Below, piece by piece: positions 450 through 5,629 of a stretch of 64,000 bases of DNA (its first letter is position 1; every line of letters starts with the position of its first letter). Both the position numbers and the translations under genes were made by a program. Origin of the DNA: Dehalogenimonas sp. 4OHTPN (GTDB taxonomy: Bacteria > Chloroflexota > Dehalococcoidia > Dehalococcoidales > Dehalococcoidaceae). The notes under the pieces are model-generated. The model made no database searches. It saw only the letters and a list, made by a program, of their open reading frames with translations, and was not told where the DNA came from. Location of the stretch: positions 1,116,001-1,180,000 of the forward strand of contig NZ_CP159307.1 of NCBI RefSeq assembly GCF_040448695.1, in the 5' to 3' direction.

Positions 450-3400
450 TCAAATTCGGCGTTTAACGTCACAAAGGGTTTGTGCGACTGCGGTGGCGAG
501 TGCTGCGGGCTCAAAGGGTTTCACCAGACTGGGTAGACGGTGCGTCTCCAGGAACATTTTGACATCTTCACCCAGGGTATCGCCGGTGATAATTACGATA
601 CGTCCGGCCATCTCCGGCCGACGGTCAATAATTTCGGCGTAAAGCGCCATGCCGCTGGTCCCGGGCAATCGAAGATCCATGACGATAATGTCGTAGTCTT
701 TTTTGCTTAGTAGAATTAGTGCTTGCGCGGCAGAAGCCGCTGTGTCGACGTGCCGGTCTTCCCCGGAAAGAGATTCAACCGCAAGGTTGCGTATGCACTC
801 CTCGTCGTCTATCACCAAGATAACGGCCGCTGATTGATGTTCTAGGTTATTGACACTTGAGTCACGATTTTCGGCTGCCGAGACGGAAATCTGAACAATC
901 GGCAACAGGATGGTGAAAGCAGCCCCGCATCTGGGAGACGATGCCACCTCCAGAGTGCCGCCGTGTTCCTCAACGATTGAACGGGAAAGTGCTAACCCCA
1001 GACCGGTGCCTTCGCCGGGATTTTTGGTGGTGAAGAACGGCTGGAAAATCTTAGTTATAGTTACGTTGTCGATTCCCGGTCCGGAGTCGGCGAAAATCAA
1101 CCTGAGATATCTCGCCTCCAAAGCGGCGGTGATGGTGAGTTTCCCCGGGTTGCCAGTATGCTTGATGGCATATTCGGCATTGACTATGAGATTCAGGATA
1201 ACCTGCTGCATCTGGCCCGGATCAACGATTATCCACGGTAAATTTTCAGAGTACTTCTTAACAACCTCGATGCCGGAGGTCTTCAGCACGTATGCCCTGA
1301 GTTCGAGAGTATTATCTATCAACTCAGTAATATCCACGCGTGATTTCAACGGCTTGGTTTGGTGGGCAAAGGTCAGCATTCTTTTGACGATTTCGGCCAC
1401 TCTTCTGGAGCCATCAGCGATAACTTTCAAGTCGTCAGCGACTTCCGGCGCCAGATCGCTACGGGCAAGCAACAACTCCGAAAAACCAAGGACACCGGTG
1501 AGGGGATTGTTGATCTCATGCGCAATTCCGGCGGCCATTTCGCCAACGGCAGCCAAGCGGCTGGATAACTCCGCTTTTTCTTTTAACCGCTGTTGTTCAG
1601 CTTCGGCCTTTTTAACGGCAGTTATATCGCGGGCGATATGGACATATCTTCCGCTAGATTTACCGCCAATTTTAATTGGAGTGATGTTGACCTGATAGGT
1701 ATTATCACCCTGAACGATCTCATCACCCAGACCACACCGATTCCGGTCGCCGAGGCCAGGGCAAAAGCCGGGCAAGACACAGGTATCGTGCATTATTTGA
1801 TAGCATTTTTTACCTACTGCCTCGGCCGGAAGCATTCCGGTTTTGTCTGCCATAGAACGGTTGACGCGAATAATGTTATGGTCCTTGTCCATAATACAAA
1901 TCAGGTCTGGTATGGAGTCGAAGGTGCTTTCCCACTCCTGTTTCGCAATTAAGATTGCCTGATCGTTCTTGCGGCGTTCAAAGATATCACGTTCAGCGAT
2001 CAAAAGCCCCCGCAGGGATACTGCAGCCACCGATGTAAGCGAACGGATGAGGAAATGATCGCTGTTCGAGAACTCCTGGCGGCTGGCTTTACCCGAAAGG
2101 AACAAAACGCCAACGGTCTTGCCTGCAGCCGTGAGTGGAATCATATAAGCAACATCTTTTGAGCCCACAACGTTAGGGTATTCAGTCGAAGGCGTTCTCC
2201 GTTTGACAAAATCCATCAATTCCAATTCAAACGATCTATCGGCGTAAATACCTCGCGCGGCGGCGAACACAAAACTTGTTTCATCAGTCGCTACAAATAG
2301 GCAGGCGCCTGACAGGTTCATGGCCGTCATCGGGGCGTCAATGATCAATGAGGAAGCCACCTCAACGCTAGCAGTTGCGCTGAGCGATGCGCTCAAGCTT
2401 TGAATGATTTGCTGGTAGTCATGGCGGTCTTTGTAGAAGAATTTGTCAACCAATGCTTCTGTGGCGCTTCTGGCTGGACCTAAAAGGAGAACCGCTATAG
2501 CTGAAAGGAATAATGCCAGGATGAATTGCTGAGCGAAACCCGGAGCGACTCCACTTGATAATACCAATGCAAAGACACCGGCAAGGACCGCGGCCATCAA
2601 TAGAGTGATAAGGCCGTACACTACTCCTCTTCGAACTACGACATCAATATTCATCAATTGGCGCGCGATTACGGCATAACCAAGAGACAATGGTATGAAC
2701 GACAGGAAGGCTACCGTAATATTCGACTGTAAAAATACACCGTCATCCTGAACCCCGGGGAATACACTGAAAATTAAAAAAGGAAGCAAAGCAGCCATGC
2801 ATCCCAAAAGGATGATGACCATTTGGTGCCTTGTTCGCGAATCCGCCGCTCTTAATAGATTGAATACCACGACACCTATAACACCCAAGAAACCGACACC
2901 GTATCCGATCAGCCTGAAGGTCCGAAAATCCGGGAGAGGCTGCCCATTCGACTGGCCAATGAACGGATATGCAATCACAATCAACGCCGGCAATACATAA
3001 ACCAGGTATTGGTGGGGCCTGTGTCTCAACCAGGCGCGCTCCTCGGGGAGAATCAAAAAGAAATGGAGCAACAGCCAAGGACCGATGGTGGACGCAATAA
3101 CGGTGATATGCAAAGCCAAAGGGGCCAGACGATCTGAAGCCAGATTGGAGCTGAGAGCCAACCCGAACACCAAGCTGCAAGCCAATAACAGAACCGACGC
3201 CTCGTTTTTCGGATTACGGAGATAAACGTAAATTCCGACAACCCAAAACGCCAGGCAGGGAAGAAGCCACATAATGAGGTCTATTGTCGCGCTCGAAGCA
3301 GGTTGAGTCAGAGATGAATCCGCATCAAGAATTGTGCCGTTAGGATTTACCACTGTAATTTGTCGAACTACTCGGATCCAATCCGACTCTTTAAAAGATG

Positions 3401-3638
3401 ACAGGTATTGATCAGCTGGCAGTCCATCGATAACTAGTGGAATATCTCCTGGAGCGATACCTAGTTCACTGCCAATCCCAAATGGATCGACGCTCTCAAC
3501 AACCCATTGCTCTTTATCATTTTTAAGGGAAATGACCTGACCCCCTAAAACGAGTCCAGTTTGATAATATACTGGACCAAAAGAAAGGGGGAGAATATGC
3601 CGAGGAAGTCCTTCACTCCGGAGCAGATCATCAACCAT
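450..3638 (-). CDS. ComP-like sensor hybrid histidine kinase, 5' end replaced by IS sequence
   Basis: Only about residues 36-1062 (bases 450-3532) are native. The ATG at 3638 and the first 35 or so residues come from antisense reading of the insertion sequence. Order: a PDZ-like segment (about 36-110, VVESVDPFGIGSELGIAPGD), eight or nine hydrophobic helices (about 115-400), a GAF-like region (about 415-560), PAS (about 570-690), HisKA with H707 in HEINNPL, HATPase (DSGPGID, GTGLGLALS) and a C-terminal receiver with D988 in VMDLRLPG. Extracytoplasmic PDZ followed by many helices is the sensor layout of Bacillus ComP, and KNDKEQWVVESV lines up with the KNDKSQFMIEEI stretch of B. subtilis ComP. 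The kinase half is NtrB-like, unlike the HisKA_3 of ComP. It follows the comX/comQ-like genes on the same strand. The first transmembrane helix, the native start and the promoter are lost, so expression is doubtful. Confidence 0.8.
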   Translation of the reverse strand: MVDDLLRSEGLPRHILPLSFGPVYYQTGLVLGGQVISLKNDKEQWVVESVDPFGIGSELGIAPGDIPLVIDGLPADQYLSSFKESDWIRVVRQITVVNPNGTILDADSSLTQPASSATIDLIMWLLPCLAFWVVGIYVYLRNPKNEASVLLLACSLVFGLALSSNLASDRLAPLALHITVIASTIGPWLLLHFFLILPEERAWLRHRPHQYLVYVLPALIVIAYPFIGQSNGQPLPDFRTFRLIGYGVGFLGVIGVVVFNLLRAADSRTRHQMVIILLGCMAALLPFLIFSVFPGVQDDGVFLQSNITVAFLSFIPLSLGYAVIARQLMNIDVVVRRGVVYGLITLLMAAVLAGVFALVLSSGVAPGFAQQFILALFLSAIAVLLLGPARSATEALVDKFFYKDRHDYQQIIQSLSASLSATASVEVASSLIIDAPMTAMNLSGACLFVATDETSFVFAAARGIYADRSFELELMDFVKRRTPSTEYPNVVGSKDVAYMIPLTAAGKTVGVLFLSGKASRQEFSNSDHFLIRSLTSVAAVSLRGLLIAERDIFERRKNDQAILIAKQEWESTFDSIPDLICIMDKDHNIIRVNRSMADKTGMLPAEAVGKKCYQIMHDTCVLPGFCPGLGDRNRCGLGDEIVQGDNTYQVNITPIKIGGKSSGRYVHIARDITAVKKAEAEQQRLKEKAELSSRLAAVGEMAAGIAHEINNPLTGVLGFSELLLARSDLAPEVADDLKVIADGSRRVAEIVKRMLTFAHQTKPLKSRVDITELIDNTLELRAYVLKTSGIEVVKKYSENLPWIIVDPGQMQQVILNLIVNAEYAIKHTGNPGKLTITAALEARYLRLIFADSGPGIDNVTITKIFQPFFTTKNPGEGTGLGLALSRSIVEEHGGTLEVASSPRCGAAFTILLPIVQISVSAAENRDSSVNNLEHQSAAVILVIDDEECIRNLAVESLSGEDRHVDTAASAAQALILLSKKDYDIIVMDLRLPGTSGMALYAEIIDRRPEMAGRIVIITGDTLGEDVKMFLETHRLPSLVKPFEPAALATAVAQTLCDVKRRI
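3533..3544 (+). repeat. IS left terminal inverted repeat (outer 12 bp)
   Basis: TGACCTGACCCC matches the outer 12 bases of the right end with one mismatch. Weaker similarity continues inward for about 15 bases. Confidence 0.85.
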
Positions 3639-3875
3639 CTCCGGGAGGCCGAGATCCTCATCAGCCAGGGCACCAGTCTGGCCGTCGTGCTTAAGAAGAT
3701 CGGGGTCAGCAACTGCACCTACTACCGCTGGCGTCAGGAATACGGCGGCATGAAAGTCGAGCAGGCCAAACGCCTCAAGGCATTGGAGCAGGAAAACGCC
3801 AGACTGAAGAAGCTGGTAGCCGACATCACCCTGGACAATGCCATCCTCAAAGAAGCCGCCCGGGGAAACTTCTAA
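3597..3875 (+). CDS. IS3-family transposase OrfA
   Basis: 93 residues from ATG 3597 (MPRKSFTPEQIINHLREAE). The N-terminal helix-turn-helix (SLAVVLKKIGVSNCTYYRWRQ) would bind the IS ends. It is followed by a leucine-zipper-like stretch (RLKALEQENARLKKLVADI) that mediates OrfA/OrfAB oligomerisation. An upstream in-frame ATT at 3561 was rejected because the MPRK start is typical of the family. The frame ends at TAA 3873-3875, one codon after a G GGA AAC slippery heptamer, so part of the ribosomes should continue into OrfB. Confidence 0.92.
   Translation: MPRKSFTPEQIINHLREAEILISQGTSLAVVLKKIGVSNCTYYRWRQEYGGMKVEQAKRLKALEQENARLKKLVADITLDNAILKEAARGNF
3863..3869 (+). other. Programmed -1 frameshift slippery site of the IS
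   Basis: The heptamer G GGA AAC is in phase with OrfA (CGG GGA AAC TTC TAA). It fits the X XXY YYZ rule. After a -1 slip the next residues are GKLLSPHKRRQVITKIQD, running without a stop into OrfB, and this junction resembles OrfAB fusions of other IS3 elements. No experimental proof is available from sequence alone. Confidence 0.75.
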
Positions 3876-3949
3876 GCCCGCACAAGAGACGTCAGGTTAT
3901 CACCAAGATTCAGGACAAGCTGAAGGTCTCCCAGAGGCGGGCATGCCAG

Positions 3950-4711
3950 GTGCTCGGCCAGGCCAGGGCTACCCAGCGCCGTGATAAGGAGCCACCCGAT
4001 GAGGAAAAGCGCCTGGTGGCCGATGTCACTGCACTGGCCACCAAGTTTGGCCGCTACGGTTACCGGCGGATCACGGCACTACTCCGTGAAAGAGGCTGGC
4101 GGGTGAACCACAAGAGGGTAGAGAGGATCTGGCGCATGGAAGGACTCAAGGTGCCCCAGAAGCAACCTAAAAGAGGCAGGCTATGGCTTAATGACGGCTC
4201 GTGCATCCGGCTCAGGCCGGAGCATAAGGATCACGTCTGGAGCTATGACTTTGTCAGTGCCAGGACATCAGACGGCCGGGCTTTTCGGATGCTCAATATC
4301 ATCGATGAATACACCCGGGAATGCCTGGCCATCCTGGTCAAGAGACGGATCACGTCAGAGGATGTCATCGACCAGCTCTTCAATCTGTTCATCTTAAGGG
4401 GCATACCCGAGCACCTGAGGTCGGACAACGGACCGGAATTCACCGCCAGATCGATCAGGAAATGGCTGGCAGACATTGGCATCAAAACGCTGTTTATCGA
4501 GCCTGGGTCACCCTGGGAGAACGGCTACATCGAGTCATTCAACGGCAAGCTCAGGGATGAACTACTGAACCGGGAGATCTTCACCACGCTTTTTGAGGCT
4601 GAAGTATTGATTGCCGACTGGAGGAGGCAGTACAATCAGGTCCGGCCTCACAGCTCACTTGGTTATCTGCCACCGGCACCTGAGGCTATTATGGCTGCCA
4701 AAACTACTTAA
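3950..4711 (+). CDS. IS3-family transposase OrfB (DDE integrase domain)
   Basis: The GTG at 3950 is only the first in-frame start; the -1 frame is open from the slippery site at 3863 and encodes KVSQRRACQVLGQARATQRR, the usual OrfB beginning. The product is therefore probably an OrfAB fusion spanning 3597-4711. It has an HTH_21-like part (GYRRITALLRERGWRVNHKRVERIW) and then an rve catalytic core with the DDE triad: D in WSYDF, D in RSDNGPEF and E in NGYIESFNGKLRDE. It ends in the typical NQVRPHSSLGY tail. It catalyses excision and integration of this IS. No catalytic residue is missing. Confidence 0.94.
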   Translation: MLGQARATQRRDKEPPDEEKRLVADVTALATKFGRYGYRRITALLRERGWRVNHKRVERIWRMEGLKVPQKQPKRGRLWLNDGSCIRLRPEHKDHVWSYDFVSARTSDGRAFRMLNIIDEYTRECLAILVKRRITSEDVIDQLFNLFILRGIPEHLRSDNGPEFTARSIRKWLADIGIKTLFIEPGSPWENGYIESFNGKLRDELLNREIFTTLFEAEVLIADWRRQYNQVRPHSSLGYLPPAPEAIMAAKTT

Positions 4712-4723
4712 CAACTGGTACCA

Positions 4724-5341
4724 TCATTGGGGGCAGGTCACTCCTGGATCATTTGTGGAAAGAACGGCGCCAATATGGCATGCACATTGGATTTGAGACG
4801 CTGATGTTTTTTGGATATGAGAGATATATGCGGTCTCATCAAAACAAGAACTCAACGAACCGCATAAATCTTGATGTTGCCCGATGGAAGATTGAATAAA
4901 ATATCTGGTTAAAATTTCTAGGGCAGAATGAAATATCTGGTTAGAAACAAGATTATTCATTCGAGCGAAAGCAGCGTATGCGAGTAATATCATAGTCGAG
5001 CCGATATTCATCCGGATGGATTTGCTAAGGCCAGTAAAACCGGTTGGGATATGGTCGTCATCTTCAAGATCGTCGAATACATCGGCCGCTGTCAGCATGA
5101 ACTGAATTGCGGCAGCGAAAGGTAAAGTATGTGTCCATTCGCCGTTAATGCTCTGGGCAACATACAAAGGCAGCAATGGCCAGTGATTATTGTCTGACGA
5201 TGTTCCTAAAACTCTCCCTTCAACGGCCAGCGGGGCTCTAATATGAGAGACCAATTCGGTGTCATTAGAATAAGGAGCTAGAATTGCTTCTAGCTCCTTA
5301 TTGAGGGCTATACTTTTAATAACTAAGTCGCCCCGGTCCAT
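4724..5341 (-). pseudogene. comQ: ComQ-like isoprenyl transferase, 3' end removed by the IS
   Basis: ComQ is a cytosolic class 1 isoprenoid enzyme that prenylates a Trp of the ComX pre-pheromone. Counting from ATG 5341, the first Asp-rich motif DVFDDLEDDD lies at 87-96, like SSDIMDDLEDED in B. subtilis ComQ. GQHQD is at 154-158, matching the GQHDD site, and the following EtAYIshIqKTSASqIqcAchIGAvLsT tracks the ComQ helix IRLKCGSLIALANVAGVLLAT. After residue 200 the frame enters the IS (VTCPQ, stop). Intact ComQ is about 300 residues, so roughly the last third is missing and activity is doubtful. A GTG at 5368 overlapping the peptide gene is an alternative start that would allow translational coupling. 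It lies just downstream of the comX-like gene on the same strand. Confidence 0.82.
4729..4740 (-). repeat. IS right terminal inverted repeat (outer 12 bp)
   Basis: On the minus strand this reads TGACCTGCCCCC, matching the left end with one mismatch. The truncated comQ-like gene runs into it and stops 16 bases inside the IS. Confidence 0.85.
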
Positions 5342-5358
5342 AATTGAAAGATACCTTG

Positions 5359-5568
5359 TTAAAACCACCCACCCATGGGTCCAATTTGCGACTGAAGAGA
5401 GACACCATCAGCGGTGACTAAGCCCGTACGCCCTTGCAAGGAAAGGACCGCCTTTTTATCAACCGGGTTAAGTTCCAGTTTGGCGACATACGCTTCGGGA
5501 TTGGCTTCGAAATCCTTGCGGGCGGACTCATCTCTAAATATGGTCTGGACTAAGTCGGCCAAGTTCAT
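5359..5568 (-). CDS. ComX-like pre-pheromone peptide candidate
   Basis: 69 residues, MNLADLVQTIFRDES to QSQIGPMGGWF, with Trp68 next to last. ComX precursors are 50-75 residues, share little sequence and carry a conserved Trp near the C-terminus that ComQ prenylates. Size, Trp position and adjacency to a ComQ homologue fit. The N-terminal part (DFEANPEAYVAKLELNPVDKKAV) resembles a helical leader seen in some RiPP precursors, which is an alternative or complementary reading. It has a strong RBS (GGAGG, about 8 bases before ATG 5568) and a near-consensus promoter. The gene ends inside the possible GTG start of the transferase gene. Assignment rests on context and the C-terminus, not on strong similarity. 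Confidence 0.72.
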   Translation of the reverse strand: MNLADLVQTIFRDESARKDFEANPEAYVAKLELNPVDKKAVLSLQGRTGLVTADGVSLQSQIGPMGGWF

Positions 5569-5600
5569 AACCTTTCCTCCTTAATTAATTTTAGTTACGG

Positions 5601-5629
5601 ATTATAAACTCAGAATATCGACACGTCAA
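5601..5629 (-). promoter_or_regulatory. Sigma-70-type promoter of the comX/comQ-like genes
   Basis: On the minus strand: TTGACG at 5629-5624, a 17-base spacer, and TATAAT at 5606-5601. The predicted start near 5594 leaves a leader of about 25 bases with GGAGGAAAGG before the ATG at 5568. Confidence 0.75.

Follow-up and report, generated by a model that had tools for sequence, protein, structure and literature searches.

Does a member of the Chloroflexota carry a locus for signalling by prenylated peptides, as the ComQXPA module of Bacillus does? The question is raised by a locus in a 64,000-nucleotide stretch of the genome of Dehalogenimonas sp. 4OHTPN (contig NZ_CP159307.1, positions 1,116,001 to 1,180,000), here called the window, in which an original prediction made from the sequence letters had recognised three neighbouring minus-strand genes, X, Q and P, as a ComQXP-like module. 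Sequence comparisons indicate that this gene set is real and conserved, and that it stands between ComQXPA and the PalXQP genes of Paenibacillus alvei. The window copy itself is a remnant in which Q and P are not intact. We consider it likely that it is what remains of a prenyl-peptide signalling locus, and that in intact relatives Q would prenylate a Trp of X and P would sense the product. The available text of PMC4008528 reports no comQXPA-like locus outside the Firmicutes in 2,620 complete and 6,970 draft genomes, and that of PMC8895600, a KEGG-based survey, mentions for Chloroflexi a kinase-regulator pair and only that. No description of X-Q-P in Chloroflexota was found among the papers listed by the literature searches, the closest being the kinase-regulator remark.

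The three open reading frames (ORFs) are confirmed on the minus strand with their motifs and coordinates, in the order X-Q-P. X (5359..5568) codes for a 69-residue precursor with an NHLP-like leader and the C-terminus GPMGGWF, in which the presumed acceptor Trp is next to last. Upstream of it on the same strand lie AAGGAGG, its likely ribosome-binding site (5576..5582), present in four congeners, and a sigma-70-type promoter-like pair (5601..5629) composed of TTGACG, a 17-bp spacer and TATAAT, which agrees with the consensus at 11 of 12 positions. Q (4724..5341, minus strand) is a truncated ComQ-like prenyltransferase of about 200 of 324 residues that starts at an ATG at 5341 and stops at 4724; an in-frame GTG at 5368 would overlap X. 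It retains the first aspartate-rich motif, DVFDDLEDDD (5054..5083), and GQHQD (4868..4882), which corresponds to GQHxDL of ComQ. The P ORF spans 450-3638 on the minus strand (1062 residues), with its upstream end running into an insertion sequence (IS), and P proper, a ComP-like sensor fused to a hybrid histidine kinase, occupies 450..3524 without its first membrane helix. A PDZ-like segment (3417..3503, minus strand) is weak here (E 0.17) and clearer in several relatives. It is followed by nine membrane helices predicted by a simple hydrophobicity scan (2481..3278; ten in the intact P of a close relative, G083) and by the Pfam domains of a hybrid kinase, namely PAS, HisKA (1362..1547), HATPase_c (897..1223) and a response regulator receiver (486..821). 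Here and below, handles in G denote genomes and those in L mapped stretches.

The genes of the trio are present, as the original prediction held, but the window copy is broken by an IS3-type element (3533..4740, plus strand). The element has inverted terminal repeats of the form TGACCTG.. (3533-3545 and 4729-4740) and two ORFs (3561-3875 and 3950-4711), and its transposase matches NF033516 with 227 bits against a cut-off of 160. Compared with G083, the closest relative and a member of the same genus (Q 88-89% identical to the window Q), the IS replaces 481 bp covering the last part of Q and the first part of P, flanked by window positions 3534 and 4740. Q is short of about 125 of its 324 residues, the second motif included, and its last few codons are IS sequence. 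P has lost about 39 initial residues, and with them its first membrane helix; its ORF now opens with about 35 residues of IS sequence. In the 1.75-Mb single-contig genome the IS occurs three times without a difference over 1,191 bp, and once more as a partial copy at 72%; none of the three identical copies has an obvious target duplication. Because the copies are identical within the genome, the insertion is probably recent. The other two identical copies lie at genome positions 1427602-1428792 and 1443177-1444367, and one IS copy adjoins a reductive-dehalogenase match (1426514-1427440). By gene content the host is an organohalide respirer, with 38 reductive-dehalogenase matches (a number that includes fragments of the same gene) against 0 of 14 controls.

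Intact X-Q-P loci do occur in relatives, including the congeners G083, G189 and G200, where the original prediction had proposed to look. A search with Q of 245 genomes of the class gave some match in 134 at E<=1e-4. Eleven genomes have Q beside X or P at E<=4.8e-15; the next genome, at 7.8e-13, is separated by a small gap and holds a canonical synthase by context, as do the mapped Q matches beyond the best 11 genomes (L041-L044). The P-sensor profile finds ten of the 245 genomes at E<=5.9e-123, the next standing at 1.4e-35 and 60 genomes having some match at 1e-5. An X profile finds 11 at E<=1.1e-12, followed by a next best of 2.1e-7; since it was built from ten of these loci, the co-occurrence of X is partly circular. 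G032, whose X did not enter the profile, has it at the border of a different contig (L155 204-431), with five residues after the Trp. The top matches to X, Q and P all fall within the same 11 genomes, and the one genome without P is that in which a contig ends inside Q. Intact X-Q-P is present in G083, G189, G200, G219, G220, G039, G018 and G007, a contig of G040 ends inside Q, a contig of G032 begins inside Q, and the window genome makes up the eleventh.

When the Q alignment was used to scan 84,980 species genomes by means of two peptide patterns, 29 loci came back; ten belong to Dehalococcoidia or 'Chloroflexi', the other 19 to Bacillus or Metabacillus. Three of the ten were taken as the same records as G219, G220 and G018; L046, L047, L049, L050 and L051 also carry X-Q-P, and L052 and L054 are truncated at contig ends. 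Altogether 13 intact loci are found in other Chloroflexota genomes, with four cut by contig ends, in addition to the broken window copy. No Paenibacillus is among the loci returned by this pattern scan, which did not return G007, G032 or G039 either. In the Bacillus and Metabacillus maps, transferase, ComP-like kinase and ComA-like regulator follow in order in six of seven, L057 being without the kinase; a ComX-like ORF is present in five of the seven mapped loci, and a simple pattern picks one out in 7 of 13 loci searched, giving 12 loci in all. All 15 Dehalococcoidia-type relatives that have the stretch on the same contig carry, ahead of Q, a small ORF with a near-terminal Trp. The original prediction had named, as the contrary outcome, a Q placed among ordinary synthases and relatives devoid of such an ORF; that outcome did not materialise. 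Two sources of the locus were tried and rejected. For a viral origin, 278 viral-contig stretches matched a pattern and none encoded a Q relative. For a plasmid origin, 35 records of a plasmid collection match Q, all below 60% identity; the annotated records among the 20 of these 35 that were listed are polyprenyl or octaprenyl synthases, and the P sensor has no match in that collection.

Comparison of the window genome with G083 shows purifying selection on all three genes. The ratios of nonsynonymous to synonymous substitution rates (dN/dS) for this pair are 0.15 for X (69 codons), 0.20 for the Q remnant (195) and 0.10 for P (1024), next to 0.12 for the neighbouring deformylase; for X of G189 against G200 the ratio is 0.07. 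Upstream of X, TTGAC[GT]-N17-TATAAT and AAGGAGG recur at the same spacing in the window genome, G083, G189 and G200. It is the conservation of the promoter-like pair that is remarkable and not the count of such matches, which in the stretch is not above that of shuffled sequences (6 found, 3.5 expected, standard deviation 2.1). Because of the purifying selection, the conserved promoter-like pair with AAGGAGG, and the confinement of the genes to the same 11 genomes, X-Q-P is not a chance assembly.

The sensor of P is homologous to that of ComP, as had been proposed from its PDZ segment and multiple helices. Aligned as profiles, the first 420 residues of 14 P and the first 400 of 6 ComP match over 336 columns (probability 99.5%, E 1.1e-22), and a repetition with 12 and 6 sequences gives E 3.3e-23; one reversed and five column-shuffled control profiles give E 0.17-0.82. 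By the hydrophobicity scan, P of G083 has ten helices at near-identical spacing to the ten of ComP from B. spizizenii; ten are also counted in P of G219, and nine each in P of G039 and ComP of L055. Pfam matches PDZ in several P and in ComP of L055, and the model of P has strands between the first two helices. In a structure search the P sensor matched seven-helix receptors of a general kind (Z 11.7-14.3 among the matches listed), from which nothing is concluded. The likeness does not extend to the kinase: unlike that of ComP, the kinase core of the window P is not HisKA_3 (PF07730) and belongs to another class, with HisKA and a receiver instead, and no ComA was seen next to it.

Precursor X departs from ComX and approaches PalX. 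Trp is invariant in the tail of 16 of 16 aligned X while the residues around it vary; the last Trp is final in one (G039) and next to last in 13, and is followed by four residues in L046 and five in L047. Several of 12 compared ComX likewise have Trp next to last. The Os1348-type NHLP model NF038399 matches nine of ten X leaders at E<=0.1 (best 6.2e-12), and X also matches LigA in seven of ten and Frankia_peptide in three of ten. The window X on its own is weak (LigA 1.4e-4, NHLP E 0.13), and that of G083 scores 16 bits against the NHLP cut-off of 40. By sequence, then, the X leader resembles that of PalX and not that of ComX. According to the available text of PMC10853753, PalQ is a proven C-terminal Trp prenyltransferase acting with an NHLP precursor. 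PalX-PalQ-PalP is alike in its NHLP-type precursor, its C-terminal Trp, its Trp prenyltransferase of the isoprenoid-synthase superfamily, its histidine kinase and its number of three genes, as described in the same partial source (PMC10853753); it is as close a precedent for the window locus as ComQXPA, to which the original prediction had matched it. The differences are that the window X ends in WF, and only that of G039 among 16 X ends in Trp; that PalQ has Q197, D200 and D204 in the paper's numbering where Q has QxxND, a comparison made by description; and that no signalling role is assigned to PalX in the available portion of PMC10853753. As stated there, PalQ requires Trp to be the final residue. 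Because PalQ tolerates no residue after Trp, Q must differ from it and would in this resemble ComQ, whose target is an internal Trp.

The leader of X also bears on the alternative that survives best, namely that X and Q make a prenylated ribosomally synthesised and post-translationally modified peptide (RiPP), mainly an antimicrobial or other product, with P as a self-inducing regulator or immunity sensor and not a density receptor. Leaders of the NHLP type are characteristic of RiPP natural products, and that of X is one of them. The available text of PMC10853753 gives no function for PalX, which is compatible with the same explanation. Neither a transporter nor an immunity gene, however, recurs next to X-Q-P in the gene maps (the neighbours were judged by eye, with no family-library scan), and the constant partner of X-Q is a ComP-like receptor, so that this explanation is in our view unlikely. 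A gene close to X-Q-P in three congeners presumably encodes a ClpP-like protease. Much less probable still is that X is a small protein of another pathway and not a precursor, as its weak LigA and nitrile-hydratase matches might suggest; NHLP precursors are known for their resemblance to nitrile hydratase alpha and LigA, and both the matches to the Os1348-type model and a C-terminal Trp that stays invariant among varying neighbours speak for a precursor.

Comparisons of Q provide evidence that it groups with ComQ, apart from canonical prenyl synthases, in line with the original prediction of a ComQ-type transferase. First, intact Q shares the motifs FDDxEDxD, Asn112 (G083 numbering), GQHxDL, [KT]S[AG] and QxxND with ComQ, apart from exceptions in single rows, Thr replacing Lys in [KT]S[AG] in the lineage of the window's genus. 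The second motif is QxxND, in place of DDxxD, in all nine Q of alignment A1 that have this stretch; DDxxD is kept in each of 15 canonical Dehalococcoidia synthases, and six canonical rows from other phyla all have QxxDD there, four with the full DDxxD. Second, a ComQ profile gives 13 of 13 Q 93-117 bits, compared with 32-65 bits for 15 of 15 canonical Dehalococcoidia synthases and 17-37 bits for six of six from other phyla. Third, in a tree 13 Q, seven wider homologues and seven ComQ split from 14 canonical rows with branch support of 100/100. The canonical rows came from Chloroflexota, Proteobacteria and Actinobacteria, with 8 of the 15 Dehalococcoidia synthases kept; the cut Q of the window was left out, L046, L047, L049 and L051 were added, and the long-branch rows L105 and L139 were dropped. 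The Gln just before the second motif, a likely Trp-recognising residue according to the available text of PMC13290415, is kept in Q and also in canonical synthases, and is thus not decisive.

The model of intact Q has the trans-prenyl-synthase fold (mean predicted local distance difference test score, pLDDT, 87.5), with its best match to a geranylgeranyl diphosphate (GGPP) synthase (Z 34.1). Ord1 (PDB 9v4g-9v4j), for which we know of no link to a precursor peptide or receptor, has the same predicted fold (Z 29.4-30.4). It differs in being a farnesyltransferase of free tryptophan, as far as the accessible text of PMC13290415 describes it. That Q is an ordinary polyprenyl diphosphate synthase with unrelated neighbours is the least probable alternative of all and is rejected: PF00348 (matched equally by ComQ, hence without discrimination), NCBIfam prenyl synthase families, the fold and the raw profile scores lean towards a synthase, but QxxND in place of the DDxxD of canonical rows, the 100/100 split and the linkage of Q to X and P stand against it.

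Set beside ComQXPA of Bacillus subtilis and its relatives, the locus shares a Q with common motifs, a homologous sensor, a short precursor with Trp near its C-terminus, and adjacent genes on one strand. It differs in an X leader that is not homologous to ComX by hhalign, in the order X-Q-P and in its Chloroflexota host. Of the ComQXP-like locus originally proposed, the likeness of Q and of the P sensor is supported, and a homology of X to ComX is not. HisKA kinases, often hybrid, or cyclic-di-GMP (c-di-GMP)-type enzymes replace HisKA_3, and no ComA is seen beside the Dehalococcoidia-type loci; LuxR-type regulators are found in more divergent loci.

The outputs of the receptor vary. Pfam scans of 23 P proteins from relatives (that of L052 left out) identify kinases in 18 and c-di-GMP-type enzymes in five. 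The kinases are HisKA-HATPase-receiver hybrids (6), HisKA-HATPase proteins (5) and HATPase kinases near a response regulator (7). An HD-GYP-type HD domain, with HHExxxGxGYP present, is found in P of G039, G032 and G018, HD with GGDEF in P of G548, and GGDEF with EAL in P of G450. These compositions suggest that in such loci a peptide signal may feed straight into c-di-GMP. Receptor outputs of these kinds are unreported for ComQXPA or PalXQP in the available portions of the literature. The c-di-GMP-type P genes lie beside Q at L036 6463-8868, L038 787-3147, L039 9505-11748, L129 4373-7711 and L139 3701-7051; X adjoins them too, except at L038, where it is on another contig.

Nine wider candidate loci, more divergent and reached via the sensor, were identified in G058, G181, G203, G011, G548, G394, G422, G317 and G450; four of these genomes belong to the class and the other five to the rest of the phylum. 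Every locus combines genes resembling Q and P with a small ORF in which a Trp lies among the last 13 residues; these small ORFs were chosen for that Trp or by eye and are weaker evidence than the first set. Among the regions fetched, four of five from the class held such a locus, as did 5 of 19 from the phylum, none being seen in 14, some of them cut by contig ends. The Q-like proteins of seven wider loci fall within the Q/ComQ group of the tree, and those of G058, G181, G203 and G011 keep QxxDD at the second motif. The sensors of eight also match ComP (E 1.1e-9). HisKA_3 is matched at E<=1e-3 in three of seven kinases of the wider loci, with one above the cut-off, and a LuxR/GerE-type regulator, like the ComA-like one of L055, is present in five of five scanned (of seven).

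For intact relatives we infer prenylation, export, sensing and density dependence, along the following lines. X would serve as a short precursor whose NHLP-type leader docks on Q. Q, a ComQ-like transferase of the trans-prenyl-synthase fold, would use geranyl or farnesyl diphosphate to prenylate the Trp close to the C-terminal end of X, and the tail would be cut and exported by other proteins. The lipid-modified peptide would then bind the PDZ/ten-helix sensor of P and change the activity of the cytoplasmic output. In the window strain X may still be made; it is probably neither modified nor sensed, because the insertion cost Q its end and P its start.

Several observations weigh against this reading. 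The raw scores for Q favour canonical synthases over ComQ, both by hhalign (420 against 258) and with the Q profile (157-223 bits for eight canonical rows, 116-140 bits for seven ComQ), and the nine wider Q-like rows reach 17-82 bits on the ComQ profile, overlapping the canonical rows. Within the tree, ComQ falls among Chloroflexota rows with weak support (85/74) on a long branch (length 2). X is not a detectable homologue of ComX, hhalign against 12 Bacillus and Metabacillus ComX giving a probability of 1.6%; the genome has no PF05952 (ComX) match at E<=1 either, in a test so insensitive that B. subtilis itself matches only below the cut-off. Most X carry at least one residue after Trp, unlike what PalQ requires. 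Nine Chloroflexota sensors of the same build, with X or Q not seen nearby, match ComP as well (E 7e-13); judging from these comparisons, the sensor family is wider than prenyl-peptide loci, and a sensor alone does not imply a prenyl peptide. No exporter or ComA was seen beside X-Q-P within the window. Finally, the locus is patchy, as four of eight sampled genomes of the genus are without X-Q-P, the deformylase-adjacent stretch in these four congeners holding other genes. The nine sensors are those of L123, L124, L128, L130, L131, L132, L135, L136 and L104, and for L123 and L130 contig ends lie close upstream.

A broader extension of the prenyl-peptide reading is conceivable, and we hold it more tentatively, leaning slightly towards doubt. 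The Chloroflexota may possess prenyl-peptide loci of an old and diverse family whose receptors share one conserved front end joined to interchangeable outputs (hybrid kinase, kinase with LuxR-type regulator, HD-GYP phosphodiesterase, HD-GYP with GGDEF, or GGDEF-EAL), including in some species a lipidated peptide that directly sets c-di-GMP. Bacillus ComQXPA would then be one branch, its precursor replaced or diverged beyond recognition. Linked X-Q-P genes in Chloroflexota, whose enzyme groups with ComQ, would add another phylum, and organohalide-respiring bacteria, to the range of prenyl-peptide signalling, and a swap of output to c-di-GMP-type enzymes would be new wiring for such a signal. 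Since intact loci are present in single-contig genomes, the system is testable by co-expression, and enzymes prenylating a next-to-last Trp could serve peptide chemistry.

Some further arrangements were observed around these genes. Candidate X-Q-P-A arrays, consisting of a small ORF with Trp near its end, a divergent Q-like enzyme, a kinase and a response regulator, are found in other Chloroflexota at L105, L106, L107, L108, L133, L134 and L137. In G450 (L139 7067-8381) the order is Q-X-P as in Bacillus, and the Q-like gene there is without a Pfam match. Small proteins with an X-like start and a different C-terminal part are encoded at L156 1501-1899, L172 1396-1653 and L170 1426-1791.

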